From the NCBI GenBank assembly GCA_016946835.1, contig JACVTC010000426.1, positions 1 through 29,673 of the forward strand: 29,673 nucleotides of DNA, written 5' to 3'. A model generated the notes under the pieces. That model ran no database searches and was not told the DNA's origin. It saw nothing but the letters and a program-made list of their open reading frames with translations. A program made the translations under genes and the position numbers. Shown in pieces: positions 2,224 through 28,331 of this stretch (positions are counted from its first letter, which is position 1; every line of letters begins with the position of its first letter). The stretch is from Neocallimastix lanati (nom. inval.). Taxonomy: Eukaryota > Neocallimastigomycota > Neocallimastigomycetes > Neocallimastigales > Neocallimastigaceae.

Positions 2224-5200
2224 CTAATCTATAGCTGAGTTATACTTTACTATATTTTTCAAATGGACATTACGATTCATTTGAATCATAGTATTTGGGT
2301 CCGCAAGTGTTACGGTATTAAATTGTTTTTTTATTACTTTTAAAGGACCGACAAAATAAGGTTCTAATTTAGAACGACTAAAATTTCGAACAAGAACTAA
2401 ATTACCGATTCTTATGTTTTTGGAATTTTTCATGCTATTTTTTTCTTCCCTTCGATTGGCCCAATATTTACTTGCGTTCTTTACATTTTCAGCTGCTTCC
2501 ATGGTCCACCTATAATGTGAGATAAATTTTTCTAAAAGAATTTCATCTGAAGATTTATTCACTCCTTGTGTAGGTCTAGCAGCAATGTCGAAAGGCTGTT
2601 GATCCTCACGACCATAAACTAATTCGAAGCTAGAATGTTTGGTTACAGAATTCTTTGTAGTTCTAAGGGCCCACAAGGCTGAAGGTAATACCTCATCCCA
2701 GTCTTTATTTTCTTCACCAAGTAATCTCAATAATTTACCAATTTCTTTATTCCTATTTTCAACCAATCCATTACTTTCTGGGTGATAGGTAGTGGTAAAT
2801 TTTACGTAAACATCATATAAGTCCAGGAATATTTTAGTCATATCCGATGCGAATTGAACGCCATTATCCGTTGTAATGACTTGAGGAACTCCATGTCTAG
2901 CGAAAACATTTATTAAAAACTTAATAATGTCCTTAGATGTAATATTTTCAGTAGGTTCAGCCTCCACCCACTTTGTGAAATAATCCACCGCAACAATGAT
3001 ATATTGGTTTTTATTACCAGTTTTTATTAAGGGACCAATAATATCAAGTCCAAGATGAGTAAAAGGTCCTTCAACTTCTGTTGGAATGTTTTCGGTTGGT
3101 TCTGGATATGGCTGAGGGCGATTTAACTGACATTTTTCGCATTTTGAAATTATCCGTTTTATATCGTTGACCATATCATTCCAGTAGTAACTTTTTCTAA
3201 GTCTTTGATATGTTTTATAATAACCTTCATGGCCAACATGATGTGCTTCGAGAATTAATTTTAGTTTTTCATTTGTTTCGGTAACAAGTTTTCTATAATT
3301 ATTTCCATCTATAAAATAATCTATACCATCAATCTTTGTAAATTTTTCTTCAATAAATTCTTTAATTACTTTAGAAAGTGAATCATTTTCATCATCTTTA
3401 TTCGTTTTTATAGCTAATACCTTTTGTTCTTTATCGTTCTTCATTCTAGATAAAGCGTCGGCTACTACATTCTTTTTACCTTGCTCATAGCGAATATCCA
3501 CTTTTAGCATACTTGCAGTCAAACACCATCTTGTTTGTCGTGCATTATTCGGTTCCTTATTATTAAATAAACCTAGTAGAGGTTTGTGATCTGTAAAAAC
3601 TATGGTTCTAAAGGGGCTTCCCATAATATAAGGTTTTAATTTAGTAATACAATAATATAAAGCCGTTCCTTCCAAATCGGTTATTCCATAATTCTTTTCT
3701 GCTTTGGTTAAGCTACGGCTAATGAAATGAATCGGGTGTTCTATTTCCGATTCGTCTTTCTGCAATAAAACTCCACCAATACCTTCATATGATGCATCTG
3801 TTCGAATAATGAATTCTTTGGAAAAATCAGGATATTTTAAAATAGGAGCATTAATTAATTTTTCTTTTAATTTGGTAAAACTTTGTTTTTGTTCATTATT
3901 CCATTTATATTTTACGCCTTTTCTTAATAGCTTACAAAGAGGAGCTGAGGTTTGAGCATATTCATTTATAAAGTTCCTATAATATCCTATAGCACCTAAG
4001 AATGATCTTAACTCATGTATATTCGTGGGTTCTTTCCAGGCTTTAATTGCTTCAATTTTACTATTTTGAGGACTAAGACCCTTAGTAGAAATCTTGTGAC
4101 CAAGAACTTCAACTTCCGTTTGCATAAAGTGACATTTTTCAATATTAATTTTTAATTTATGTTCCTTGAAGATTGCTAATACTTGTTTTATGTGTTGGAT
4201 ATGTTCTTCGACAGTTTTTGAATATATAAGTATATCATCAATAAAGTTGAAAACACATTTTCCAATTAAAGGAAATAAAATTCTATTCATTTCCCGTTGG
4301 AAGGTAGCCGGAGCTCCAGTTAATCCAAAAGGCATAACTTTGAATTGGTGGTTGCCAAATTTGGTTGTAAAACTGGTTATTTCAACACTTTCTTCGTCCA
4401 TTAGGATTTGATGGTAACCTGAGTATAGATCCATAGTAGTAAAGATTTTGGCACCATCTAGACTGTCAAATATCTCGTCAATATAAGGAAGGGCATAAGA
4501 GTCTTTTTCGGTTAGATCATTCACCTTGCGGTAGTCCACACACAATCTCCATTTTCCATTAGCCTTTGGGACCACAACAACAGGTGAAGACCATTCTGAA
4601 TATGATGGTACAACTAGCTTTTTCTTAATAAGTTTAATTAGTTCTTCTTTAATAATATCAGATTTAAATTTGGTTACTCTGTAACATCTTTGTTTAACAG
4701 GTTTTGCGTTCGCTTTCAAGTTAATTTTATGAGGGGCCAAGTCTGACGGTGTTAATTCTTCAGAAGATGTCGCTATAATGTCCAAGTTTTCTTCAAGTAA
4801 TTTTACTATTACATCTTTATAATCTTTACAAAGGCTTGCTAAAAATTTTTCATCATGGATATACTCTTGCGGAGATAGACCTTCAAGTTTCTTTAATTCA
4901 TTAGTTGTGTCTTCATATTCAAGTATTTTCCTTACTATACATACTAATTTTTCTTCTTCTTGGAAATTATTATTAATAGGAGCTATAACGTCGATTAGTC
5001 CTTGAGAATTAAATTGACATAAACTATATCTTATAGGATGGATAAAAAGATTGTGTTCTACTTGAGTTTGAAAATTAATCAACAAATCATAAAATGGGTC
5101 ATCATCATCAATTATACGAAAATCTACTATCATTTTATAATCATTAATCTTAACAGGTATTCGTACAATAATTCCTTCCGAATACTCATCATTCTTAGTC

Positions 5201-6336
5201 GCTAAACGTATCCTTCCACGACTAATACCTACTTCTTCATAATTTCCAGGTAATTTCTCATAAAATTTTTTTGTGATAACATTGAGGTTACTACAAGAAT
5301 CAATAAGTGCTTTACCAGGAATTTCATCTACTGTTACATCAACCATGGCAATATCTTCTTCTGAGGTTTCCTTACTTTTGCTAATATAAGAGTGATCAAT
5401 ATTATTTACCAAAGTAGCAGCAGCAATAGTATTGTTTAATGCACCTATTATTTTCTTTTCAGGTTTTTCTAATTTTAATCCTTGACTTACTTGACTTCTG
5501 ACTTTTGGAGAAACATTGAGGAGCTGACCGAAACTAATATTACACTTGGTTTCATTCAAATCTTGTAAAACATCATATTCTTCTTGATCCTTACACATCT
5601 TGATGTTCCTAAGCGTTCTACTAATTGTTGCTTTTTCTTTAGGCTCTTGAAAATCTATGAGCTTCTGTAATGTAATATTCTCATGACCTTCGTCATTAAG
5701 CTTTTCAGGAACTTCAATAACTTCCATTTCATTGATTTGTTTTGTTTTAATAATTTTATCGTTTTCATTATCGATTAATTTATTTAATCGTTGATGCATT
5801 TTATCACTAGTAGTACTGATGCTATTTCTTTGTTTTGAAGAATCCAGACTTTGCTTTTCTCTTATAGTAATATTATCCTCCCTTTCCTTCCTTTTTCCCT
5901 TGTTATTTCCAAAGTTAGCTCTTTCTTTATTCCGAATTTGTTTTTCTTTGGCTTTCTCAATATTTATATTAGGCTGCGCCATTATCGAAGGATGTAGTTG
6001 ATTTTTATTTTTAACAATTATTCTATTTTCTATTTCCTTCTCTTTTATCTTTCTTGTTGCAGGAGTTGTTATAGGGGTAGGATTATCTTTGAGACTTTTA
6101 CGTTGTCTCTTTTCATTATTTTCACTAGTTTCATCGTTAGTCGTCAACTTCCTTTTTGTCGCACTAACTATAAATTCTACATCATTCTCATTATCGGATT
6201 CTTTGTGAGTTTCATTAGTATAGGAAGCATCTTCTTTTTCTTCCTTATTATAATCATTTGTACTACTAGGAATGGATTTGTATTGTAATGAAGCTATTTT
6301 ATTTTTATAGGGAGTGCTTCCTCTCCCTTTTAATGG
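2224..6336 (-). CDS. pol: E2 Pol: protease, reverse transcriptase, RNase H, integrase (expressed by -1 frameshift)
   Basis: Enzymatic polyprotein that copies the element RNA and inserts the cDNA. The frame is open from the frameshift site (about 1370 aa) and has no ATG at its 5' end; the first codon after slippage is at 6336. In a count starting at the TTG codon at 6147: K/N/E-rich linker 1-200, GQLLNVSPKVRSQ motif near 207, protease motif DSCS at 283-286 instead of the usual D(S/T)GA, RT about 480-700 with FIDD at 635-638, RNase H with D784, E826, D853 and D897, integrase zinc finger H969/H973/C1003/C1006, DD35E at D1035, D1094 and E1130, and a GPY/F-type module (PYFVGPLKV, near 1263). No chromodomain. 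All catalytic residues except the altered protease context are present, so the gene looks functional. Confidence 0.93.
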   Translation of the reverse strand, partial: PLKGRGSTPYKNKIASLQYKSIPSSTNDYNKEEKEDASYTNETHKESDNENDVEFIVSATKRKLTTNDETSENNEKRQRKSLKDNPTPITTPATRKIKEKEIENRIIVKNKNQLHPSIMAQPNINIEKAKEKQIRNKERANFGNNKGKRKEREDNITIREKQSLDSSKQRNSISTTSDKMHQRLNKLIDNENDKIIKTKQINEMEVIEVPEKLNDEGHENITLQKLIDFQEPKEKATISRTLRNIKMCKDQEEYDVLQDLNETKCNISFGQLLNVSPKVRSQVSQGLKLEKPEKKIIGALNNTIAAATLVNNIDHSYISKSKETSEEDIAMVDVTVDEIPGKALIDSCSNLNVITKKFYEKLPGNYEEVGISRGRIRLATKNDEYSEGIIVRIPVKINDYKMIVDFRIIDDDDPFYDLLINFQTQVEHNLFIHPIRYSLCQFNSQGLIDVIAPINNNFQEEEKLVCIVRKILEYEDTTNELKKLEGLSPQEYIHDEKFLASLCKDYKDVIVKLLEENLDIIATSSEELTPSDLAPHKINLKANAKPVKQRCYRVTKFKSDIIKEELIKLIKKKLVVPSYSEWSSPVVVVPKANGKWRLCVDYRKVNDLTEKDSYALPYIDEIFDSLDGAKIFTTMDLYSGYHQILMDEESVEITSFTTKFGNHQFKVMPFGLTGAPATFQREMNRILFPLIGKCVFNFIDDILIYSKTVEEHIQHIKQVLAIFKEHKLKINIEKCHFMQTEVEVLGHKISTKGLSPQNSKIEAIKAWKEPTNIHELRSFLGAIGYYRNFINEYAQTSAPLCKLLRKGVKYKWNNEQKQSFTKLKEKLINAPILKYPDFSKEFIIRTDASYEGIGGVLLQKDESEIEHPIHFISRSLTKAEKNYGITDLEGTALYYCITKLKPYIMGSPFRTIVFTDHKPLLGLFNNKEPNNARQTRWCLTASMLKVDIRYEQGKKNVVADALSRMKNDKEQKVLAIKTNKDDENDSLSKVIKEFIEEKFTKIDGIDYFIDGNNYRKLVTETNEKLKLILEAHHVGHEGYYKTYQRLRKSYYWNDMVNDIKRIISKCEKCQLNRPQPYPEPTENIPTEVEGPFTHLGLDIIGPLIKTGNKNQYIIVAVDYFTKWVEAEPTENITSKDIIKFLINVFARHGVPQVITTDNGVQFASDMTKIFLDLYDVYVKFTTTYHPESNGLVENRNKEIGKLLRLLGEENKDWDEVLPSALWALRTTKNSVTKHSSFELVYGREDQQPFDIAARPTQGVNKSSDEILLEKFISHYRWTMEAAENVKNASKYWANRREEKNSMKNSKNIRIGNLVLVRNFSRSKLEPYFVGPLKVIKKQFNTVTLADPNTMIQMNRNVHLKNIVKYNSAID

Positions 6337-6342
6337 TTTAAA
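6290..6342 (-). promoter_or_regulatory. Programmed -1 frameshift signal of E2: slippery site and H-type pseudoknot
   Basis: On the mRNA, UUUAAAC (6336-6342) lies in the Gag frame as U UUA AAC, the canonical X XXY YYZ phase. An 8-nt spacer holding the gag stop (6330-6332) follows. Then stem 1, GGGAG (6323-6327) with CUCCC (6310-6314), closes an 8-nt loop, and one further A-U pair can form. Loop bases GAAGC (6316-6320) can pair with GCUUC (6290-6294), 15 nt downstream of stem 1, giving an H-type pseudoknot. Pol is in the -1 frame and open only to a stop at 6352-6354, so the shift must occur in a 22-nt overlap that contains this heptamer. The same layout occurs in E3 and E4. Confidence 0.9.
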
Positions 6343-7226
6343 GATTTTCCACTATATAACCGTTTCTTATTTTCTTGAATAATTGCATTTAACTTAGGAC
6401 AATTATACTGCAAATGTCCTGGATCGCTACAATAAAAACAGGCTTTAATGGTAAGATTTTTCATTTTTTTTGTTAAGTCCTCCAATTCGTAATCTTTATT
6501 TCTTTTTGGGCTTCTAACTTCATAATTCTCTCTTACTACCTTTCTGTTGTTTTGATAATTATTCCTGATATTTATTCTTGGGTTGACAATTTCAGTTGAG
6601 TACTCTTTTGAGGGTCTCAAATTCATTACTCTATCAACTTTTTCGGCAATGTCAAACGCCCGATTTAAAGAAATGTCATCCTTAAGGGAGACCTTTTTCC
6701 AAGCTTCTTCATTGTTCCTAAGAGCATCAATATAATCGAGAACACTGACTCGCTTCTTTCTTTTCTTATCTAATTTAAAATATATGGATCGGAAACGAGT
6801 ATTAAAGTCTTTTACTCGCTCATTTCTTTTAATTCTTAAAGCACGGAGCTCACGAAGTAACATATTCTGGTCTTCTTTAAGACCATAAAAAGTTTCTATT
6901 GCTTCTACAATTTCCTTTAAGGAAGGATATTCATCTTTTTTCTTTTCTTCTGAATCAGATTCTTCTTCTTCTTCTTCGTCCTCACTTTCTGATTCAGAAT
7001 CGGTACTGTAACTTTCAATTAAATCCTGGATAACTTCGCGAGGCTCTCCAGTAGACGTGAGTAAGCAGGCGGTAAAAATCTTTTTGGGATCAGTAACTTC
7101 CTCAAGTTTTATCCATAATCGGATTTCTGATTCCCAAGATTTGATATCGAGATTTTCCTTTGAAATTTTCTCGATATCTTTTAATTCCTTTTTTAATTCT
7201 TTAAAATTGATTTTATTTTCAGCCAT
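6330..7226 (-). CDS. gag: E2 Gag (capsid/nucleocapsid)
   Basis: Structural protein of the virus-like particle, 298 aa from the ATG at 7224-7226 (MAENKINFKELKK). The frame is also open 13 codons upstream, but without an ATG. A helical Ty3/gypsy Gag capsid region (SWESEIRLWIK; YIDALRNNEEAWKKV) is followed by a CCHC zinc knuckle CFYCSDPGHLQYNC (about 263-276), expected to bind the genomic RNA. An unusual acidic run of Glu/Asp/Ser (about residues 77-98) sits inside the capsid region; E4 Gag has a similar one. Gag ends two codons after the slippery heptamer, so terminating and frameshifted products differ only at the extreme C-terminus. The first part is duplicated in E2b. Confidence 0.9.
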   Translation of the reverse strand: MAENKINFKELKKELKDIEKISKENLDIKSWESEIRLWIKLEEVTDPKKIFTACLLTSTGEPREVIQDLIESYSTDSESESEDEEEEEESDSEEKKKDEYPSLKEIVEAIETFYGLKEDQNMLLRELRALRIKRNERVKDFNTRFRSIYFKLDKKRKKRVSVLDYIDALRNNEEAWKKVSLKDDISLNRAFDIAEKVDRVMNLRPSKEYSTEIVNPRINIRNNYQNNRKVVRENYEVRSPKRNKDYELEDLTKKMKNLTIKACFYCSDPGHLQYNCPKLNAIIQENKKRLYSGKSLNH

Positions 7227-7345
7227 TTGAAAATTTAAAAATGGTATTAATGCTATGATATCCAATTTAAAAATATGTTTACTTTAAAAATATATTTAAT
7301 AACAAAAAAAAATAAATTTATCTTTGTTTTATACTAATATAATTA

Positions 7346-7515
7346 TGGACTCAGAAAACCCTCTGACAATCCAATTCTTTATTCCAATAATAATTCAGAC
7401 TCAGAATCTCTCTCTGAAAATCTGATAAATTAATTCAGACTCGAAAACACCCTTCGAAAATCTGAAACTAAAAAAAAATAAATTCAGACTCAAAAACGCA
7501 ATTTGAAAATCTGAA
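7346..7515 (-). repeat. Tandem array of four RNA hairpins in the E2 leader
   Basis: Four units of about 33 nt on the sense strand, each an outer stem (UCAGA/UCUGA in three, GGA/UCC in the one nearest gag), a four-over-two asymmetric internal loop, an inner 4-bp stem and a small apical loop. The inner stem differs between units but always pairs: CAAA/UUUG, CGAA/UUCG, CAGA/UCUG, CAGA/UCUG. Compensatory changes between repeats point to selection on RNA folding. The copy in E2b is at 15485-15653. Confidence 0.8.
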
Positions 7516-7824
7516 GCTTTTTATTATGAATTTTAATGTTTATTATATTCTCTTAAGCATTAATACACAAAATATGTATATCTTAATTTTTTTTTAAATT
7601 TATTTGTAGTAATAACTTCTTTATTTAATTTTATTTAATATATTTATTTCCTTTATTAAAATAATTAATATAACATAAAGCAAATTGTATAAATACTTAA
7701 ATAATAATAATAATGTATATTTATTTTTATTTTTATTTCTTTTTTGTATATATTTATTATTCTATTAATTCTTTGTTATAACATTTAATGAAATATTAAA
7801 TAAAAAGTTAAAATACAAGCCAAA

Positions 7825-8105
7825 CTATATAGTGTTGAACCATCAAATATATAGCTTGTTAACCCTTCTTACAATAAGTCCCCTTAGCTCTTTATTGATA
7901 AGTTGATAATGTCGATTGTTAATTATTAAGAAACTTAATAAAAAGAAGGTAGCAATATTAAATTCTTTTTAATTTGGCTAACTTATTGTTAGTAATAAAG
8001 AAGATAATAACGTATCCTTCCCAGTATCAACAAGATCAAAACAATAAAGTATTATGTGTGGGTGTTCAACTATCCCGCGTAGAGAGTTGTAAGACAGCTT
8101 ATTTA
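7825..8105 (-). other. Structured leader island A (E2)
   Basis: Counterpart of 14895-15190 in E2b. Less AT-rich than its surroundings, with a perfect 9-bp long-range helix (ACAAUAAGU with ACUUAUUGU) and an enclosed 8-bp hairpin. No ORF or recognised RNA family. Confidence 0.5.
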
Positions 8106-8499
8106 TATTTTTCTTTTTAATTAAAATTTAATTAATTATATAACGAATAATAGAAAATTTAACACATACAAAAAAAAAAAATTTCAATTATAAAAATTTC
8201 AATAAAAAAAATTTAATTATATAAAATCATAAAAATAATACACTTATTTGAAAAATAATAATAATAATCTAATTTTATATATTCTATATATATATATTGT
8301 ACATGTATATATTAAAAAAAATAAAACAAACTGATAAACATAAAAAAATTACAATTTATTATTTAGAATTATTAATATAAAAAAAAAATTTATTTATAAA
8401 ATTTATTCTTATTAAAAAAAATTAAAAATTTGTAATACAAAAAAAAAAATTTTGCTTATTATTTTAATATTTATCATTAATTAAAAAAAATATATTTTT

Positions 8500-9524: not shown

Positions 9525-9531
9525 TAAATTA

Positions 9532-10360
9532 TGTTATGGTTCGGGTTTTATTAGAATTTTATTTAATTATTTATTTTTAATATTTTTCTGTCTACATTTT
9601 AACTATTGAAAAACTTCACTTATTTATACTTTTTGAAAAAAAAATAAATATGTAAAGCCTTTCTACATTTTATTATCATATTTAAAAAAAAATATTTACT
9701 ATTACTAATTACTTAAAATTTTATATTAATTTAAATTAACTAATTCATAAGTATTTTTATTTTAATAAATTTTGTTTATATAATTTTATATTATTTTTCA
9801 TATACTAAAACTAAATTATTTAATATATACGAAAAGTAACAAACAAAATTTAAAAAGATTTTACAGAAAAATAAAGTTATTTTAATCAAGAATGTTAATA
9901 TAATATTCTTATATTTTATATAAAATAAATTTAAAAACTATAATATATTTAATATTTATTATTAATCAATTAAGATTTGATTTTATTTGTGGGGAATAAA
10001 AAATATTAAATAATCAATTTAAAAATAAAATAAAATACTAAAAAGAATACAAGTTTAATATTGATACAATATAATAATAATATAATAATATATTTGAAAA
10101 TAAAAATAAAATATTAATATTGATAATAAACACTTTAATAAAATAATAAAATTTAAGGTTAAATTATAGATATTGATATAAAAATATAGAATTATTGATA
10201 ATATTTTAGAAACTTTTAATAAAAATAAAAAAAAATATATTTAGAAAATATTTTAGTATAGAAAATATAGTAAAGTAATATTAAGTAAAGAATAATATAA
10301 TGGATTCTAAAGTAAGTTGAAATTCTAATTAATAATCCATTATATGTTCGTTCTTTACCA
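9532..10360 (-). repeat. 5' LTR of E2 (829 bp)
   Basis: Ends as in the 3' LTR (TGGTAAAG...CCATAACA on the minus strand). It is 10 bp shorter than the other copies, with scattered substitutions, as expected after some time since insertion. Confidence 0.95.
9621..9628 (-). promoter_or_regulatory. TATA box in the 5' LTR of E2
   Basis: Minus-strand TATAAATA with AAAAAG upstream; the likely core promoter for leftward transcription of E2. An AATAAA-like motif lies in the short R/U5 region after it. Confidence 0.55.
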
Positions 10361-12603: not shown

Positions 12604-12615
12604 TTTACTTACTTT

Positions 12616-13454
12616 TGGTAAAGAACGAACATATAATGGATTATTAATTAGAATTTCAACTTACTTTAGAATCCATTATATTATTCTTTACTTAATATTA
12701 CTTTACTATATTTTCTATACTAAAATATTTTCTAAATATATTTATTTTTTTTATATTTTTATTAAAAGTTTCTAAAATATTATCAATAATTTTATATTTT
12801 TATTATTAATATCAATATCTATAATTTAACCTTAAATTTTATTATTTTATTAAAGTGTTTATTATCAATATTAATATTTTATTTTTATTTTCAAATATAT
12901 TATTATATTATTATTATATTGTATCAATATTAAACTTGTATTCTTTTTAGTATTTTATTTTATTTTTAAATTGATTATTTTATATTTTTATTCCCCACAA
13001 ATAAAATCAAATCTTAATTGATTAATAATAAATATTAAATATATTATAGTTTTTAAATTTATTTTATATAAAATATAAGAATATTATATTAACATTCTTG
13101 ATTAAAATAACTTTATTTTTCTGTAAAATCTTTTTAAATTTTGTTTGTTCCTTTTCGTATATATTAAATAATTTAGTTTTAGTATATGAAAAATAATATA
13201 AAATTATGTAAACAAAATTTATTAAAATAAAAATACTTATGAATTAGTTAATTTAAATTAATATAAAATTTTAAGTAATTAGTAATAGTAAATATTTTTT
13301 TTTAAATATGATAATAAAATGTAGAAAGGCTTTACATATTTATTTTTTTTCAAAAAGTATAAATAAGTGAAGCTTTTCAATAATTAAAATGTAGACAGAA
13401 AAATATTAAAAATAAATAATTAAATAAAATTCTAATAAAACCCGAACCATAACA
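12616..13454 (+). repeat. 5' LTR of E2b (839 bp)
   Basis: Plus-strand TGGTAAAG...CCATAACA, inverted relative to 1362-2200 and 9532-10360, with few differences. A TATA box is at 13359-13366. Confidence 0.95.
13359..13366 (+). promoter_or_regulatory. TATA box in the E2b LTR
   Basis: TATAAATA with AAAAAG upstream, about 90 bp before the LTR end. Together with the E2 5' LTR it would drive divergent transcription away from the 10.4-12.6 kb spacer. Confidence 0.55.
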
Positions 13455-13461
13455 TAATTTA

Positions 13462-13478
13462 TGGTGGAGATATCGGGG
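13462..13478 (+). other. Primer binding site of E2b
   Basis: TGGTGGAGATATCGGGG, 7 nt after the LTR end, identical to the site in E2. Confidence 0.7.
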
Positions 13479-14365
13479 AATATTAGAAAAATAAAATTTA
13501 ATATTATTTATTAATTAAATTATTTAACAAAGCCTTGGATATAGATTTCCGGGCTAAGTTTAACCTACATAGTAATTGGGCTAGTAGGCTCTGGACTGCT
13601 GTATTTTATATTGAATACAGTAGCCGTGGTACCCGCGTGGCATGACGCCGTGAAGAGGCAAGCTGCACGTCAGACAGGGTATACTATCAGATTATCCATA
13701 AGTTTTGTTAAATAATAATAATTAATAATTTAATATTAATATTAATAATAATAAAAGTTATAATAAAAAAAAAAAAAAAAAAAAACTTTGGAAAACTTTA
13801 GTTTTTGTAGTAACTTTATTTAATTATCAATTATAGAATAAAAAATAATAATAAAAAAAAAATAATAAAAAGTTAACAAATTTACGAAGTTAATATTCGA
13901 GTAAGACAGTGTTAGCTTGCAGGATATTAATTTCATAAACTCTTATTTACAATTTTGCAAGGTTTTGTAGATTGTAAACGCGAGTATCTCAAGGAACAAA
14001 TCCTTGACAATTAGGCAAATACGCCCTAGAACTATAAAACCTTCACGCTGAAGGCAACTACACACTTCAACAGGTGATAGTTTGTTCACTCGCGCAGAAA
14101 ATAAGAGGTGGGTCAGGTTCGATCCCTGATAAAACCCTGGTCATTCTTGCGAAGTGACGTTAAAATATATAGTTTTTTTTTTTTATTTTTATTTTAGGCT
14201 TTTATAAATTTGTTCGCCTATTATTATTATTATTATTATTATTATTTTTGCAATAAAATAAAAATATATATATATTTTTTTTCCTTTTATTAAAATAATA
14301 AATATTTCATTAATAAATTTTTTTTTATAAATAATAAATTAAATTTTTCTTTAGTGTAGAACAAA

Positions 14366-14371
<6 letters not shown>

Positions 14372-14407
<36 letters not shown>
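14372..14407 (+). repeat. Poly(A) tract, 36 nt (E2b leader)
   Basis: A36 on the sense strand of E2b. Confidence 0.9.
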
Positions 14408-14411
<4 letters not shown>

Positions 14412-14452
14412 TTTTTTAACCAATAGTATTATCATAGATATAGATTTATATA

Positions 14453-14455
<3 letters not shown>

Positions 14456-14506
<51 letters not shown>
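14456..14506 (+). repeat. Poly(A) tract, 51 nt (E2b leader)
   Basis: A51 on the sense strand, the longest homopolymer in the window. Confidence 0.9.
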
Positions 14507-14510
<4 letters not shown>

Positions 14511-14894
14511 TAATTAATGATAAATATTAAAATAATAAGCAAAAAAATTTTTTTTTTGTAGTACAAATTTTTAATTTTTTTTTTAAATAAGAATAAATTT
14601 TATAAATAAATTTTTTTTTATATTAATAATTCTAAATAATAAATTGTAATTTTTTTTTATGTTTATCAGTTTATTTTATTTTTTTTTAATATATACATGT
14701 ACAATATATATATATAGAATATATAAAATTAGATTATTATTATTATTTTTCAAATAAGTGTATTATTTTTATGATTTTATATAATTAAATTTTTTTTTTT
14801 TCGAAATTTTTATAATTGAAATTTTTTTTTGTGTGTGTTAAATTTTCTATTATTCGTTATATAATTAATTAAATTTTAATTAAAAAGAAAAATA

Positions 14895-15190
14895 TAAATA
14901 AGCTGTCTTACAACTCTCTACGCGGGATAGTTGAACACCCACACATAATACTTTATTGTTTTGATCTTGTTGATACTGGGAAGGATACGTTATTATCTTC
15001 TTTATTACTAACAATAAGTTAGCCAAATTAAAAAGAATTTAATATTGCTACCTTCTTTTTATTAAGTTTCTTAATAATTAACAATCGACATTATCAACTT
15101 ATCAATAAAGAGCTAAGGGGACTTATTGTAAGAAGGGTTAACAAGCTATATATTTGATGGTTCAACACTATATAGTTTGGCTTGTATTTT
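14895..15190 (+). other. Structured leader island A (E2b)
   Basis: ACAATAAGT (15011-15019) pairs perfectly with ACTTATTGT (15121-15129). Inside lies TTATTAAG-TTT-CTTAATAA (15059-15077). An outer helix may form between TAGTTGAAC near 14930 and GTTCAACACTA near 15165, with small bulges. A branched RNA domain is suggested; no known family recognised. Confidence 0.5.
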
Positions 15191-15484
15191 AACTTTTTAT
15201 TTAATATTTCATTAAATGTTATAACAAAGAATTAATAGAATAATAAATATATACAAAAAAGAAATAAAAATAAAAATAAATATACATTATTATTATTATT
15301 TAAGTATTTATACAATTTGCTTTATGTTATATTAATTATTTTAATAAAGGAAATAAATATATTAAATAAAATTAAATAAAGAAGTTATTACTACAAATAA
15401 ATTTAAAAAAAAATTAAGATATACATATTTTGTGTATTAATGCTTAAGAGAATATAATAAACATTAAAATTCATAATAAAAAGC

Positions 15485-15653
15485 TTCAGATTTTCAAATT
15501 GCGTTTTTGAGTCTGAATTTATTTTTTTTTAGTTTCAGATTTTCGAAGGGTGTTTTCGAGTCTGAATTAATTTATCAGATTTTCAGAGAGAGATTCTGAG
15601 TCTGAATTATTATTGGAATAAAGAATTGGATTGTCAGAGGGTTTTCTGAGTCC
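15485..15653 (+). repeat. Tandem array of four RNA hairpins in the E2b leader
   Basis: Units at 15485-15517, 15534-15566, 15575-15605 and 15628-15653. The first three have outer stem UCAGA/UCUGA; the fourth has GGA/UCC. Inner stems are CAAA/UUUG, CGAA/UUCG, CAGA/UCUG and CAGA/UCUG. Spacing between stems is always 4 nt on the 5' side and 2 nt (AG) on the 3' side. Confidence 0.8.
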
Positions 15654-15773
15654 ATAATTATATTAGTATAAAACAAAGATAAATTTATTTTTTTTTGTTA
15701 TTAAATATATTTTTAAAGTAAACATATTTTTAAATTGGATATCATAGCATTAATACCATTTTTAAATTTTCAA

Positions 15774-16147
15774 ATGGCTGAAAATAAAATCAATTTTAAA
15801 GAATTAAAAAAGGAATTAAAAGATATCGAGAAAATTTCAAAGGAAAATCTCGATATCAAATCTTGGGAATCAGAAATCCGATTATGGATAAAACTTGAGG
15901 AAGTTACTGATCCCAAAAAGATTTTTACCGCCTGCTTACTCACGTCTACTGGAGAGCCTCGCGAAGTTATCCAGGATTTAATTGAAAGTTACAGTACCGA
16001 TTCTGAATCAGAAAGTGAGGACGAAGAAGAAGAAGAAGAATCTGATTCAGAAGAAAAGAAAAAAGATGAATATCCTTCCTTAAAGGAAATTGTAGAAGCA
16101 ATAGAAACTTTTTATGGTCTTAAAGAAGACCAGAATATGTTACTTCG
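15774..16147 (+). pseudogene. gag: E2b gag, truncated by E4
   Basis: The ATG at 15774 starts the same MAENKINF protein as E2 Gag. The match continues through the acidic run and MLLR to nt 16147, then the frame runs into the E4 LTR and stops at 16181. The zinc knuckle and the frameshift signal are absent from this fragment. Over the shared stretch the protein is identical to E2 Gag, so the two copies are closely related. Confidence 0.92.
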
Positions 16148-16164
16148 TGTAACGAAATCTTCAG
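16148..16164 (-). repeat. End of the E4 3' LTR (outer 17 bp)
   Basis: TGTAACGAAATCTTCAG on the plus strand: the terminal bases of the E4 LTR, separated from the rest (23444-24306) by E3. The last four bases are the left copy of the TCAG duplication. Confidence 0.8.
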
Positions 16165-16904
16165 TGATGAGAAATTATTAATAACTTACTTTAGTTTATT
16201 AATAACTCTTTATCAAAGTTATAAATTTTAAGATAATTAAAATATATTTTATTATAAAACTTTTTAAAATTGATTTATTAGAAACAATGAAGTTATTTTA
16301 ATACATAAATTTTATTTAATTTTTAAATATTAATTTTTATTTAATTTTAAATTTATAATATTAAATAAATACTTTTAAATTTAAATAAGATAAAATAAGT
16401 ATTTATTGAACAAGTTTTGATAAACAAAAATGTTAACAAGAATGTTGTTCTTTTAAATAAGAATTATTACATGTTTTTATAATTTTCGTTAAGATTAAAC
16501 TATATAATTAACTATCTAATTTAATTACTATTTATATCTTTTAGAAATATTAAAAAAAGAAAAAGTATTACTATTTTAATTCTATTTAAAGTCTTATTTT
16601 CTATTTTAAAAAAAAAAGAATTAGTTTTAAGTCTTTAAAATAAAATAACTATTTACTAATTATATCAAATAATAACAAATATTTATGTAATAAAATATAT
16701 TTTACATAATAAAATTATTTAAATTTAATTTCTATATTAATTATTTAAATTTACATTGTTCTTTTATTAATCTTAAAATTTTATTTGAAAATACTAACTT
16801 TTTATAATAATTATTTATAATTTTATAGTTTAGTAAATTATTATTATAAATTATTAATTTTAGTTTATTAATTAATTTTAAATTATAAATTTCATCTTTT
16901 ATCA
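16165..16904 (-). repeat. 3' LTR of E3 (740 bp)
   Basis: TGATGAGAAATT at the left end and CTTTTATCA at the right end; the ends are TGAT...ATCA inverted repeats. Same length and apparently same sequence as 22700-23439. AT-rich with no ORF; no clear TATA box chosen. Confidence 0.95.
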
Positions 16905-19900: not shown

Positions 19901-20738
19901 TTATTTCAATTTCATTTTCTGTTTTATTTATATTTTTGCTTTTTAATTTGTTGAAACTTTCTTGGGTAATTATATTTATGTTAGCACCTGTGTCAAATAA
20001 AACTTTAAGTGGTACGTTGTAACTTTCTCCAATAATAATAGGAATATTTATGTTAGATAGTGAACATATTATTCTTTCTACTCTTGGTTTAAGTCCTTGT
20101 TCTAATTCTTTTCTAATTGAAGGACTCGCTGCTAACAATTGCGATAAACTGATTTTTGGAAATAAATTTTGAACTTCTTCTCTAATATTAAATTTTTGTT
20201 CTTTATCTAATAATTGAATATTTGTCATATTTCTTTTTGTTATTACTTTTGAATTTTCATTTTCTGAGAATTTATTATTATTAGTTTTATTTTTATTGTT
20301 CTTATTTGTATTAGTTTCATGATTTTTATTTTCGTTATTTTCTATATCATCATCATTATGATTTTTATTTTTATTTTTGTTTTCTTTATTATTTTCTTCT
20401 TTATCATTTATTCCATTTTTGCTTAAATTATTAGTTTTATTTTGTTGTTCATGTTGTTCAATTTCATTATCACTAATTTCCATTATTTCTTCTTCATCAC
20501 TTGAATCTTTTGCTCTTCTTCTTTTATCTCTTATTTCTTTTTTTTGTTGTTTTAATAGTTTTGTTTTTGGTTGGTTTAATATTGATGGTTTTATTATTGA
20601 TTTATTTTGATTTACTTTATTTTTATTTAATTTATTCTTTTGAGTAACATTTATAGAATAATGATTTTCTTCTAAATTTTCATAAATATATTTTGCAATT
20701 TTATTTATTCTGGGAGATTGCACACTCCCATTATTTAA
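16917..20738 (-). CDS. pol: E3 Pol: protease, RT, RNase H, integrase (expressed by -1 frameshift)
   Basis: About 1273 aa when read from the frameshift; there is no ATG at its 5' end. In a count from the GTG at 20723: low-complexity K/N/E linker 1-165, SQLLAASPSIRKELEQGLK motif 194-212, retropepsin with canonical DTGA at 244-247, RT about 420-650 with YIDD at 581-584, RNase H D730, E772, D799 and D843, integrase zinc finger H919/H923/C953/C956, DD35E at D985, D1044 and E1080, and a GPY/F module (DPYFYGPFKV, 1211-1220). No chromodomain. Every expected catalytic residue is present, so the enzyme set looks functional. It differs from E2 in its classical protease motif and shares the same frameshift architecture. 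Confidence 0.95.
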   Translation of the reverse strand, partial: LNNGSVQSPRINKIAKYIYENLEENHYSINVTQKNKLNKNKVNQNKSIIKPSILNQPKTKLLKQQKKEIRDKRRRAKDSSDEEEIMEISDNEIEQHEQQNKTNNLSKNGINDKEENNKENKNKNKNHNDDDIENNENKNHETNTNKNNKNKTNNNKFSENENSKVITKRNMTNIQLLDKEQKFNIREEVQNLFPKISLSQLLAASPSIRKELEQGLKPRVERIICSLSNINIPIIIGESYNVPLKVLFDTGANINIITQESFNKLKSKNINKTENEIEIKLADNTMVSTNYYTNLKIKINDKLVIYDKFYIIDHTNPYYDIIIGRSIQKKYRLFIDPDDDSIYKKNDDNSLTKIAEIINNSNGTPLINAVIISEEEEKEFEETLNELINNVPNKIQNEFRKLIEQNKRCMATSLSQLTRAKLLPHTITTTSNMPIKSKPYKLSKEHSKILKEEIVSLLKKGLIVPSHSPWSFPVLLVQKKNGKWRMCIDYRKLNNITIKDSYALPYIDELITSVKGAKIFSALDLFSGYHQIPMNEKDVEKTAFTTKYGNYNFLVMPFGLANAPASFQREMNRILLPLIGECLFVYIDDIVVYSKNLEDHIKHLKKVFEIFTKYNLSINLQKCKFFKEEVEVLGHVLTTDGLKTAPSKVQSIALWERPNNINELRSFLGLTSYYRKFIKNYSIRANPLYKLLKKDTKFIWDENCNYAFEDLRKCLLSDPILIYPDFNKPFIVRTDASNKGIGGVLLQIGKDNLELPVTCVSRSLKPAERNYSITDLEGLAVIYTLKKFRQYIISNKNKTKFITDHEPLIGFFNKSLPVKGRHLRWMEEFNKYNIIIKYEKGKKNIFADALSRLPSSNNERIILSINTILNEFNPKDLDLPEGIIKYFSKNYQIIDNTLYYKKNDLYLKVIYKEEDKKDIINRAHNVGHEGAEKTTQRIMQSYYWPGIWSDVKMWVKSCHKCQLFRPKPLPNNTENNITPVEMPFTRVGLDIIGPLQETRKGNKYIITLVDYFTKWPEAKAIPNTTSEEVILFLTEVFSRHGPPEIIITDNGSSFISEITKMMVDLYGSWIHFVTPHHPQSNGMIENRNREIGKMLRLLIENEQEWDECLPSVLWALRTTRNSKTKFSSFELLYGRKDTWPIEIMFPDIHKEPNESEEEFNFRRFLRHYKWVKEAMEYSEHANRYWEQRMGFSKALKKKYKVGDYVLIRLFNRSKLDPYFYGPFKVVKEPKYNTVVLEDPNTGKLLSRNVHLKNIYPYTIREETLLTSGDEVTS

Positions 20739-20744
20739 TTTAAA
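20694..20744 (-). promoter_or_regulatory. Programmed -1 frameshift signal of E3: slippery site and pseudoknot
   Basis: UUUAAAU (20738-20744) in phase U UUA AAU, followed immediately by the gag stop UAA (20735-20737). After an 8-nt spacer, GGGAG (20725-20729) pairs with CUCCC (20712-20716), with a possible extra U-A pair, around an 8-nt loop. Loop bases UGCAAU (20717-20722) pair perfectly with AUUGCA (20694-20699), 12 nt beyond stem 1. The stem 1 sequence matches E2 and E4, but the loop pairing uses different bases, which is good evidence for a real pseudoknot. Confidence 0.9.
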
Positions 20745-21757
20745 TGTTTTTCATTCATTTCTTGGGTTTCTTCTTCAGGACAATCTCCTTTATCATGACC
20801 AACTCTTAGGCAATTAACACAAAAATTAATTTTTAATTCCGATAACTTTTTTGTTAATTCATCCATTTCATTATCATTTAATTTATTCTTATAATTATTA
20901 TGGATTTCATTTGGTTGTTTTTGGTTTTTATATTCATTTGTATATTGTCTATTGTAATTATTATAATTAGAATAATTTCTATTTTGATTGTTATAATAAT
21001 TAGAGTATTTATCTAGATTTCCATTGTTATTATCATTTTGTTGAGCGTATCTACTATTATTATTAATTTGTTGAGTGTATCTACTATTATTATTAATTTG
21101 TTGAACATATCTTGTAGGATTTTTGTTGTAACTAGTATTTTGATAAGATTCTTGTTTCTTGTTATTATTAGTAGATTTTCCTTTTGAATTAGAACTAGAT
21201 CCTCTTTCTTTATTTTCTTTGTTTTCCTTGAGTAGATTTAAAATCTTTTCTTTTTTTGTTGTAATCTTCATTGCTTCTTCTAAAGTGGTAGGTTCTTCCT
21301 CCATTAGACTCTCATAGATTCTTGGCCAATTTCTAAATGCGTTTATGTAATATGAAGTTGTTATGACTTCAGAAACATTAACTGTTTTATTAACCAGGTT
21401 TAAAAGTTCAGAAAATCTTAGGTCGAAATCAGATATGCTCTCATCCTTTTTAATAGTGATGGATGATAGTTCTAATATTCTTGAATTTTTTGACGTAGAT
21501 CTTTTAAAATGCTTTCCTAAATTACTAAGTATTGTATCGTAACTATCGGGATTCTTTTTATTTAAAGAATTATAGACTATGGTACGTGCGGTTTTATCAG
21601 TAACTGCAAAAAGGTAATCTACTTTTTCAGATTCTTCAGTTACTTTAAACGTCTTACACCAGTGGTCGAAGGAGAACTTCCACTCGTCAAATGAAACCTT
21701 AGAATTGCCCAATATTGGGAGTCTGTTGAATGTAATAATTTTTGTTTGACTTTCCAT
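20735..21757 (-). CDS. gag: E3 Gag
   Basis: 340 aa from the ATG at 21755-21757. Residues 1-175 are a helical Gag capsid-like region (FDEWKFSFDHWCKTF; SISDFDLRFSELLNLV; YINAFRNWPRIYESLMEEEPTTLEEA). Residues 180-300 are an Asn/Lys/Tyr/Gln-rich spacer with three tandem copies of a ten-residue unit RYxQQINNNS (about 216-246). A CCHC zinc knuckle follows (CVNCLRVGHDKGDC, 313-326), then the stop directly after the slippery heptamer. Expected to form the particle and bind RNA. It is more divergent from E2 Gag than E4 Gag is and lacks their acidic run. Confidence 0.92.
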   Translation of the reverse strand: MESQTKIITFNRLPILGNSKVSFDEWKFSFDHWCKTFKVTEESEKVDYLFAVTDKTARTIVYNSLNKKNPDSYDTILSNLGKHFKRSTSKNSRILELSSITIKKDESISDFDLRFSELLNLVNKTVNVSEVITTSYYINAFRNWPRIYESLMEEEPTTLEEAMKITTKKEKILNLLKENKENKERGSSSNSKGKSTNNNKKQESYQNTSYNKNPTRYVQQINNNSRYTQQINNNSRYAQQNDNNNGNLDKYSNYYNNQNRNYSNYNNYNRQYTNEYKNQKQPNEIHNNYKNKLNDNEMDELTKKLSELKINFCVNCLRVGHDKGDCPEEETQEMNEKHLN

Positions 21758-21865
21758 TTCTTAAAAATTATTATTATTATTATTTTTATATATATATATA
21801 AATATGTGATTTTCTATTATTATTTTAATTATTATTAATACTATTATTATTCTAATGATGAATTA

Positions 21866-22699: not shown

Positions 22700-23439
22700 T
22701 GATGAGAAATTATTAATAACTTACTTTAGTTTATTAATAACTCTTTATCAAAGTTATAAATTTTAAGATAATTAAAATATATTTTATTATAAAACTTTTT
22801 AAAATTGATTTATTAGAAACAATGAAGTTATTTTAATACATAAATTTTATTTAATTTTTAAATATTAATTTTTATTTAATTTTAAATTTATAATATTAAA
22901 TAAATACTTTTAAATTTAAATAAGATAAAATAAGTATTTATTGAACAAGTTTTGATAAACAAAAATGTTAACAAGAATGTTGTTCTTTTAAATAAGAATT
23001 ATTACATGTTTTTATAATTTTCGTTAAGATTAAACTATATAATTAACTATCTAATTTAATTACTATTTATATCTTTTAGAAATATTAAAAAAAGAAAAAG
23101 TATTACTATTTTAATTCTATTTAAAGTCTTATTTTCTATTTTAAAAAAAAAAGAATTAGTTTTAAGTCTTTAAAATAAAATAACTATTTACTAATTATAT
23201 CAAATAATAACAAATATTTATGTAATAAAATATATTTTACATAATAAAATTATTTAAATTTAATTTCTATATTAATTATTTAAATTTACATTGTTCTTTT
23301 ATTAATCTTAAAATTTTATTTGAAAATACTAACTTTTTATAATAATTATTTATAATTTTATAGTTTAGTAAATTATTATTATAAATTATTAATTTTAGTT
23401 TATTAATTAATTTTAAATTATAAATTTCATCTTTTATCA
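22700..23439 (-). repeat. 5' LTR of E3 (740 bp)
   Basis: Copy of 16165-16904 with no difference seen by eye. It is followed by TCAG at 23440-23443, the right target duplication. Confidence 0.95.
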
Positions 23440-27300: not shown

Positions 27301-28325
27301 AGTTGGATTCTTCCACGACTTTTTCCAACTGTTTCATATTCACCAGGTAATTTATCAAAATACTGCTTAGTAACGATGCTTAGGTTACTACAAGAATCAA
27401 TTAAAAGTTTTCCTAGTACTCCGTCAACACTTGCATCAACCATTGCTAAGTCTTCTTCGGCTACCTCATTACTTTTACTTATGTAGCTATGATCATAGTT
27501 ATTCACTAATAAAGTTCGTGCTATTACATTGTCTACAGTTCCAATTATTTTAGATTTTTCTAACTTTAAACCTTGAGTTAATTGTGAACGAATTTTCGGA
27601 CATGCATTCAAGAGTTGACCTATCGTAATACTGGATTTAAGATTATTTAAATCATCCATAATATTGTAAGGTTCTTTATTATTCATCATTTTGATATTCC
27701 TTTTTACTAACTGAGTATTTTCATTATTAGTTTCTTTAGTTTTTGTTGAAATTAATTTTTCCAAAGTATTAGTTTTATTTTGTTGATTATCTTTATTCAT
27801 TTCTATATCTTCTATTTCCTTATCGATTACAAGTATATCTTTCAGATTCAACTTTTTTCTTTCCTTTTGATGAATAATTGTTGTTTTCTTCTTTACTTTC
27901 TCTTACTCTTGTTATATTTCTTAATTCCTTTTCTTTTTGTTTTTCTTTGTTAATATTTGGTTGAGTTAAAATTGAAGGAAGTATTTGATTTTTATAAACT
28001 TTATTTGGTTTATTATGTAGCTCATTTTCTTTCTTCTTTCTTAAAGCAGGAGTTGCGAAAGGACGTGGATTATCTTTTAAACTTTTATGTACTTTCTTGG
28101 AATTATTTTCTTCCTTTTCGCTGTTATTATCATTCATTTTTCTTTTTATAGATTTATAATGATATCATCCTCACTTTCAGTTGTGTCACTAAAATCAGAT
28201 TCTTCAGATTCTTTATTAAAGGAATTATTATCAATTGGGGTATTCTTGGTAAAAGTATTATTTTGTAAATTATTTAATGAAGCTATTGTTTTGTCATTGG
28301 GAGTGCTTCTGCTCCCATTTAGAAG
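24325..28325 (-). pseudogene. pol: E4 pol, broken by several single-base frameshifts
   Basis: The protein is collinear with E2 Pol along its whole length but spread over all three minus frames. From the 5' side: linker (PSILTQPNIN), GQLLNACPKIRSQ motif, protease motif DSCS (27387-27398), RT with FIDD (within 25976-26509), RNase H end with ADALSR (25272-25766), integrase zinc finger (AHNIGHEG; CEKCQ), late integrase core (YHPESNGL) and GPF module (YYNGPFKIL, within 24325-24642). Breaks lie near 24940, 25130, 25300, 25775, 25860, 25980, 26575, 26777 and 27840, and look like one-base gains or losses. The remaining coding sequence is well conserved. Either recent decay or uncorrected indel errors could explain this. 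As given, no full enzyme can be made. Confidence 0.88.
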
Positions 28326-28331
28326 TTTAAA
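28279..28331 (-). promoter_or_regulatory. Frameshift signal of E4: slippery site and pseudoknot, intact
   Basis: UUUAAAC (28325-28331) in Gag phase, stop UAA at 28319-28321, 8-nt spacer, then GGGAG (28312-28316) with CUCCC (28299-28303) around an 8-nt loop, plus an extra U-A pair where E2 has A-U. Loop GAAGC pairs with GCUUC (28279-28283) 15 nt downstream. The spacer and linker sequences differ from E2 while the pairing elements are kept. Confidence 0.88.

Follow-up and report, generated by a model that had tools for sequence, protein, structure and literature searches.

Retrotransposons in the window and their gag/pol junctions

The window, i.e. the whole stretch of DNA that was analysed, comprises 29,673 nt of the 199-Mb genome of an anaerobic gut fungus, a type of host to which at least 150 CBM_10 dockerin matches in this genome point. 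It carries two Ty3/gypsy-type LTR retrotransposons of this fungus, E2 and E3, identified by reverse transcriptase (RT), RNase H and integrase in the Ty3/gypsy order, a CCHC-type Gag and the flanking LTRs; a protease was recognised by Pfam only in E3 of the two (RVP_2, weak match). Both elements have an intact Gag frame followed by an intact Pol frame in -1, while a third element, E4, is decayed, with its reading frames broken up into short ones. The frames and the junction features are as follows.

6330..7283, minus strand: E2 Gag frame of 317 aa, with a CCHC zinc knuckle close to its end and the stop UAA at 6332-6330
2224..6351, minus strand: E2 Pol open frame, 1375 aa, in the -1 frame relative to Gag, with RT, RNase H and integrase
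6336..6342, minus strand: E2 slippery heptamer U UUA AAC in the Gag phase
6328..6335, minus strand: E2 spacer, 8 nt, containing the Gag stop
6323..6327, minus strand: E2 stem 1, 5' arm GGGAG
6322-6315, minus strand: E2 loop, 8 nt
6316..6320, minus strand: E2 stem 2, 5' arm GAAGC, within the loop
6310..6314, minus strand: E2 stem 1, 3' arm CUCCC
6290..6294, minus strand: E2 stem 2, 3' arm GCUUC, 15 nt after stem 1
20735..21760, minus strand: E3 Gag open frame, 341 aa
16917..20750, minus strand: E3 Pol open frame, 1277 aa
20738..20744, minus strand: E3 heptamer U UUA AAU, Gag stop UAA directly after
20694..20729, minus strand: E3 predicted pseudoknot, stem 1 at 20729-20725/20716-20712
20722-20717/20699-20694, minus strand: E3 stem 2, UGCAAU/AUUGCA
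28325..28331, minus strand: E4 heptamer U UUA AAC, in the decayed element
28279..28316, minus strand: E4 predicted pseudoknot, stem 1 at 28316-28312/28303-28299
28309-28305/28283-28279, minus strand: E4 stem 2, GAAGC/GCUUC as in E2

A heptamer of the X XXY YYZ type followed by an H-type pseudoknot is a well-known architecture of -1 frameshifting. All features that the initial annotation had placed at 6290-6342 of E2 (the heptamer, the spacer of 8, the stem and the GAAGC loop with its GCUUC partner) were found there on the minus strand. In the Gag frame, position 6342 falls on the third base of a codon, giving the phase U UUA AAC and then CAU UAA, and a sixth pair of stem 1 is possible between A6328 and U6309. 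The frame coordinates (Gag 7283-6330, Pol 6351-2224) likewise confirmed that Pol lies in -1 and overlaps Gag by 22 nt, which include the heptamer. The heptamer is located in the upstream frame in E2, E3, E4 and their relatives, the downstream frame is in -1 and overlaps it (with short decayed frames only in E4), stem 1 follows at a spacer of 8 within the usual range of about 5-9 nt, and the complementarity of the loop to the downstream sequence, together with the swapping comparisons given below, fits E2, E3, E4 and others. The suggestion of one cassette common to the three elements stood as far as the layout is concerned, E3 also having two loop bases ahead of stem 2, but not for the sequence, since E3 has a different heptamer (UUUAAAU) and a different stem 2. 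This difference from E2 is informative because it affects the two arms of stem 2 jointly.

The direct repeats 1361-2200 and 9531-10360, located about 8.17 kb apart and 95-99% alike per piece, are probably the LTRs of E2, and a 300-nt direct repeat on both sides of E3 (16165-16464 and 22700-22999, 100% identical) probably represents the LTRs of a young E3 insertion. The region 12615-16149 is a partial, inverted E2 copy, of which 14822-16149 (1328 nt) is the exact reverse complement (100%) of 6851-8178, and positions 3-941 hold the chromodomain integrase end of an element from a different Ty3-type lineage (E1). The E2 Gag has dozens of near-identical copies in the genome, which show recent amplification, and the junction was intact in all four further close E2 copies that were read (L056, L119, L121 and L122). 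No close relative of the E2 Gag was confirmed in viral contigs, and an Rfam scan of the window gave no match at gathering scores.

Comparison regions from the same genome

For the comparison, 86 junction regions of the same genome were picked by Gag or zinc-knuckle similarity without using the motif: 40 regions out of 150 scored among 2593 zinc-knuckle candidates, and 46 Gag-anchored regions from 126 and 141 matches, picked to span identities. A heptamer was counted only if it was positioned at most 3 codons from the Gag stop. By this rule, 52 of the 86 regions had a heptamer in frame and next to the Gag stop.

In the zinc-knuckle set, 13 of the 40 regions belonged to -1 families, and 11 of these 13 had an in-frame heptamer adjoining the Gag stop (0-1 codon) with the -1 frame open; the heptamers were UUUAAAC, AAAAAAC and, once, AAAAAAA, and stem 1 was complete (5/5 pairs) in all 11. 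In L088 and L092 of this set, the heptamer was altered and the -1 frame was not open. The other 27 regions either had no stop within the piece (7) or no in-frame heptamer within 3 codons. In the Gag-anchored set, the heptamer was found 0-1 codon from the stop in 41 of 46 regions, with stem 1 complete in 39 of the 41. The uncounted regions were L120, with a different sequence at the end, L126 and L127, with an earlier Gag stop and the signal present below it, and L135 and L164, whose region or frame was unfit, the signal being readable in both and altered in L164. The latter (C584) is an E2-like copy whose Gag is part of a 675-aa open frame continuing into Pol, owing to a shift site that differs by one base.

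A further set was selected by the motif itself, and 32 of its 40 matches were kept; in one of the motif matches, L050, the Gag stop was located about 10 codons further on. The remaining eight (L046, L054, L055, L059, L064, L066, L067 and L073), which showed neither a Gag nor a Pol frame, had from 1 to 5 of the 5 stem 1 pairs. Among the rows kept, stem 1 was complete in 27 of 32 and incomplete in 5.

Conservation of the two stems

The initial annotation had proposed a covariation check of both stems in related elements. For stem 1 this came out positive among the same-genome relatives: all five pairs were preserved in 50 of the 52 anchored rows and in 24 of the 26 different 60-mers, although these counts are not independent events because the rows are related to each other. 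The 24 distinct 60-mers included 15 with GGGAG/CUCCC, five with GGAAG/CUUCC, two with GGGAG/CUUCC and one each with GAGAG/CUCUC and GGGAG/CUCUC, so that GGAAG/CUUCC and GAGAG/CUCUC represent paired alternatives to GGGAG/CUCCC. The two failures were L149, with one mismatch, and L142, a copy of the E3 class in which stem 1 is interrupted by an insertion. In a mixed set of 19 rows (A2), scored over six pairs including the outer one, 94.7% of the stem 1 cells were paired, compared to 46.5-67.5% in slid positions; three of the six pairs were changed on both sides, further pair types were no more frequent than in shuffles (303 of 500 reached the count), and the outer sixth pair was unpaired in 6 of the 19 rows.

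For stem 2, the 87 rows (3 from the window, 32 motif-chosen and 52 anchored) were reduced to 56 different 60-mers and then to 16 clusters. With one row per cluster, the fit of the loops to their own downstream sequences scored 161, against 117.1 (sd 9.0) after swapping, and none of 5000 swaps was as good. Nine hand-made class representatives gave a sum of 108 against a swapped mean of 66.1 (sd 7.9, largest 97), again with 0 of 5000 swaps as good; the search range was identical for the observed and the swapped pairs. The own downstream sequence was the strict best fit in five of these nine classes, tied in two and beaten in two. In E2, a shuffled downstream sequence was as good in 0.15% of 2000 shuffles. 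Versions of stem 2 with at least 4 bp were GAAGC/GCUUC (E2, E4), UGCAAU/AUUGCA (E3), UGUACU/AGUACA, AGUG/CACU, GAACGUU/AACGUUC, GGCAA/UUGCC and GCGG/CCGC; stem 2 of the L105 class (3 bp, 0.19 versus shuffles) and of the L111 class (P 0.068) was not significant alone. The stem 2 part of the covariation check thus holds for all classes together and not for each class taken alone. Conservation was high from the heptamer through stem 2 and dropped beyond it: in the E3 class (8 rows) it was 0.90 for the heptamer, 1.00 and 0.90 for the stem 1 arms and 0.80 for positions 33-53, compared to 0.45 beyond and 0.40 upstream.

These data bear on whether the heptamer and the stem 1 hairpin drive -1 frameshifting alone, with the stem 2 complementarity being a by-product of coding or descent. 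Such a reading would agree with stem 1 being the most constant part across all classes, with the AAGG class, described below, having only GG/CC as stem 2, and with the Pol peptide Asn-Lys-Ile-Ala, which is encoded over the stem 2 3' arm in both E2 and E3. It is nevertheless unlikely, as the loop and the downstream arm change together between classes, unmatched in any of the 5000 swaps, and as exchanging the downstream sequences of E2 and E3 gives loop scores of only 4 and 6, versus 13 and 14 with their own, despite the common Asn-Lys-Ile-Ala.

The widely sampled AAGG class (loop AAGGxxAA) has a stem 2 of two G-C pairs only, no better than shuffles (0.594). In an alignment of 15 rows over 150 nt, 12 of them motif-chosen and 3 from the zinc-knuckle set, the heptamer, most of stem 1, AAGG and a downstream CAAACC were invariant, and divergence started directly after; in the 12 motif-chosen rows the selection itself had imposed the heptamer and GGGAG. 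The constraint in this class spans the same stretch, with stem 2 having just two G-C pairs, and it may reflect a pseudoknot of minimal size, a hairpin with a triple helix or, in part, a constraint on the protein. A more specific and rather tentative reading is a distinct minimal stimulator, consisting of a 5-bp hairpin with two loop-downstream G-C pairs, stabilised chiefly by the third loop, conserved and A-rich (AxCAAACC), in the stem 1 groove.

Lineage and distribution of the module

An RT tree was built from 14 rows with junctions read, all of which, except for the three window rows, were motif-chosen. Out of 22 RT matches, the near-duplicates L009, L010, L056 and L076 were left out, as were L012, L013, L019 and L028, whose loops were unread; L093, L105, L111 and two +1 families were absent, since the fragments examined for them contained different elements or lacked a Ty3-type RT. 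Each of two classes, GAAGC with 4 rows and AAGG with 8, made up one side of a branch (91/92 and 92/94); E3 lay towards GAAGC, and the UGUAC class was the neighbour of GAAGC (99/97). Removal of the long row L062 (loop AAGG) changed the branch values to 86/91 and 93/93; strongly supported inner branches were few (2 of 11, or 3 of 10 without L062). The tree is silent on the age of the module because the rows outside the window were motif-chosen. The proposal of an ancestral module of the clade is supported by the coherence of the classes on the RT tree, within limits set by the two G-C pairs of the AAGG class and the other Gag families without the module.

Of the 150 Retrotrans_gag matches that were scored, about 36 (by eye) were located in open frames of at least 1400 aa, which we infer to be fused Gag-Pol, and therefore other Gag families appear to need no frameshift. 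Presence of the module in every Ty3-type element of the genome was rejected on these grounds: it is not general, other Gag families being found in long single frames or in copia-like elements. In L107, L108, L113-L116 and their kin the Gag frame is followed by an open +1 frame, and the piece below L107 (L168) encodes a copia-type RT (RVT_2).

Among 77 Gag homologs, 60 had a recognisable zinc knuckle, and 54 of these 60 end with Leu-Asn plus 0-2 residues, which is relevant because U UUA AAC/AAU predicts Leu-Asn. The Gag models from Orpinomyces, Piromyces and Neocallimastix had another ending or no knuckle, the gene models being truncated. The Leu-Asn ending thus supports conservation at the protein level only and only in mostly metagenomic relatives.

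Proposed mechanism

Judged by its sequence, the gag/pol junction of this Ty3/gypsy-type lineage is, with high confidence, predicted to be a canonical -1 programmed frameshift signal with an H-type pseudoknot. Its geometry is constant: a spacer of 8, a stem 1 of 5, a loop of 8 and a Gag stop 0-1 codon after the heptamer. The ribosome would pause at a compact H-type pseudoknot with a stem 1 of 5-6 bp, a first loop of 1-3 nt, a stem 2 of 4-7 bp and an A-rich third loop of 9-15 nt, and the P- and A-site tRNAs would re-pair one base back, from UUA to UUU and from AAC/AAU to AAA. A minor fraction of ribosomes would thereby produce Gag-Pol, most of them terminating at the Gag stop in the spacer, and the frameshift fraction would set the ratio of Gag to Gag-Pol.

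If Pol were expressed by means other than frameshifting (reinitiation, splicing or slippage during transcription), the signal would be a relic. An internal Met in Pol before the protease region is compatible with this option, but it is very improbable, given the position of the stop 0-1 codon after an in-phase heptamer in 52 of 52 anchored rows (counted only at up to 3 codons) and the intact signal in the recent E2-type copies read.

The motif TTTAAAC-N8-GGGAG with at most one mismatch occurred 3 times in the window against 0.27 expected, and 0 of 100 shuffles reached 3. Genome-wide, the pattern TTTAAACN{3,12}GGGAG gave 1096 matches versus 37 for the reversed pattern, and, with 3-12 allowed, the spacer was exactly 8 in 93 of 100 among the matches listed (by eye). 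The pattern TTTAAATN{3,12}GGGAG, with the heptamer UUUAAAU, gave 447 versus 194 reversed, with a spacer of 8 in about 45 among the matches listed (by eye). For TTTGAACN{3,12}GGGAG, meant as a control heptamer, 212 matches versus 35 reversed were obtained, with a spacer of 8 at 7 places among those listed (by eye); it is not a clean control because an unrelated repeat whose spacer is 7 nt (TTTGAACCAAGTAAGGGAG, e.g. C1:1428758-1428776) accounts for most of the matches listed. The nested hairpin energy by itself stood out only moderately (z -1.76, reached in 11 of 200 shuffles), albeit this test is of little use because the program permits no pseudoknots. Chance complementarity in A+T-rich DNA, to which that modest energy value and the 8 of 40 motif matches resembling chance might point, has next to no probability, being refuted by the same layout in the anchored sets chosen without the motif and contradicted by the genome-wide excess over the reversed pattern.

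Comparison with known systems and significance

The predicted signal resembles that of PEG10, a gene of Ty3/gypsy origin, for which PMC5009743 describes frameshifting with a pseudoknot and PMC2800197 a -1 direction: Ty3/gypsy descent, a Gag-Pol-like junction and a downstream pseudoknot stimulator are common to both (PMC5009743). PEG10 differs in being a domesticated mammalian gene, and the likeness is one of architecture. The H-type pseudoknots of animal viruses, as surveyed in PMC3835772, likewise have an X XXY YYZ site, a spacer of few bases, two stems and a loop crossing stem 1; however, their stem 1 is 9-12 bp in four of the six table rows considered and 6 in two, compared to 5-6 bp here. 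The yeast elements Ty3 and Ty1, likewise LTR elements of a fungus, also change frame between gag and pol, but they use a +1 shift at another kind of site (PMC5009743). According to the same source, a 2016 review, pol was in -1 in 28 of the 51 animal LTR elements covered by a 2003 survey, and fungal LTR elements were less skewed between +1 and -1 (PMC5009743).

No report on frameshifting in anaerobic gut fungi was found in the open-licence PubMed Central literature among the matches listed. The mechanism and its use by Ty3-type elements are known, and therefore this lineage and its variant series appear to be new members. The about one thousand motif matches in a single genome would mostly be copies of the frameshift cassette with a fixed geometry. 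With at least seven natural versions of stem 2 of at least 4 bp, some of them with matching changes in stem 1, the variant series represents a ready natural experiment on the importance of stem 2.
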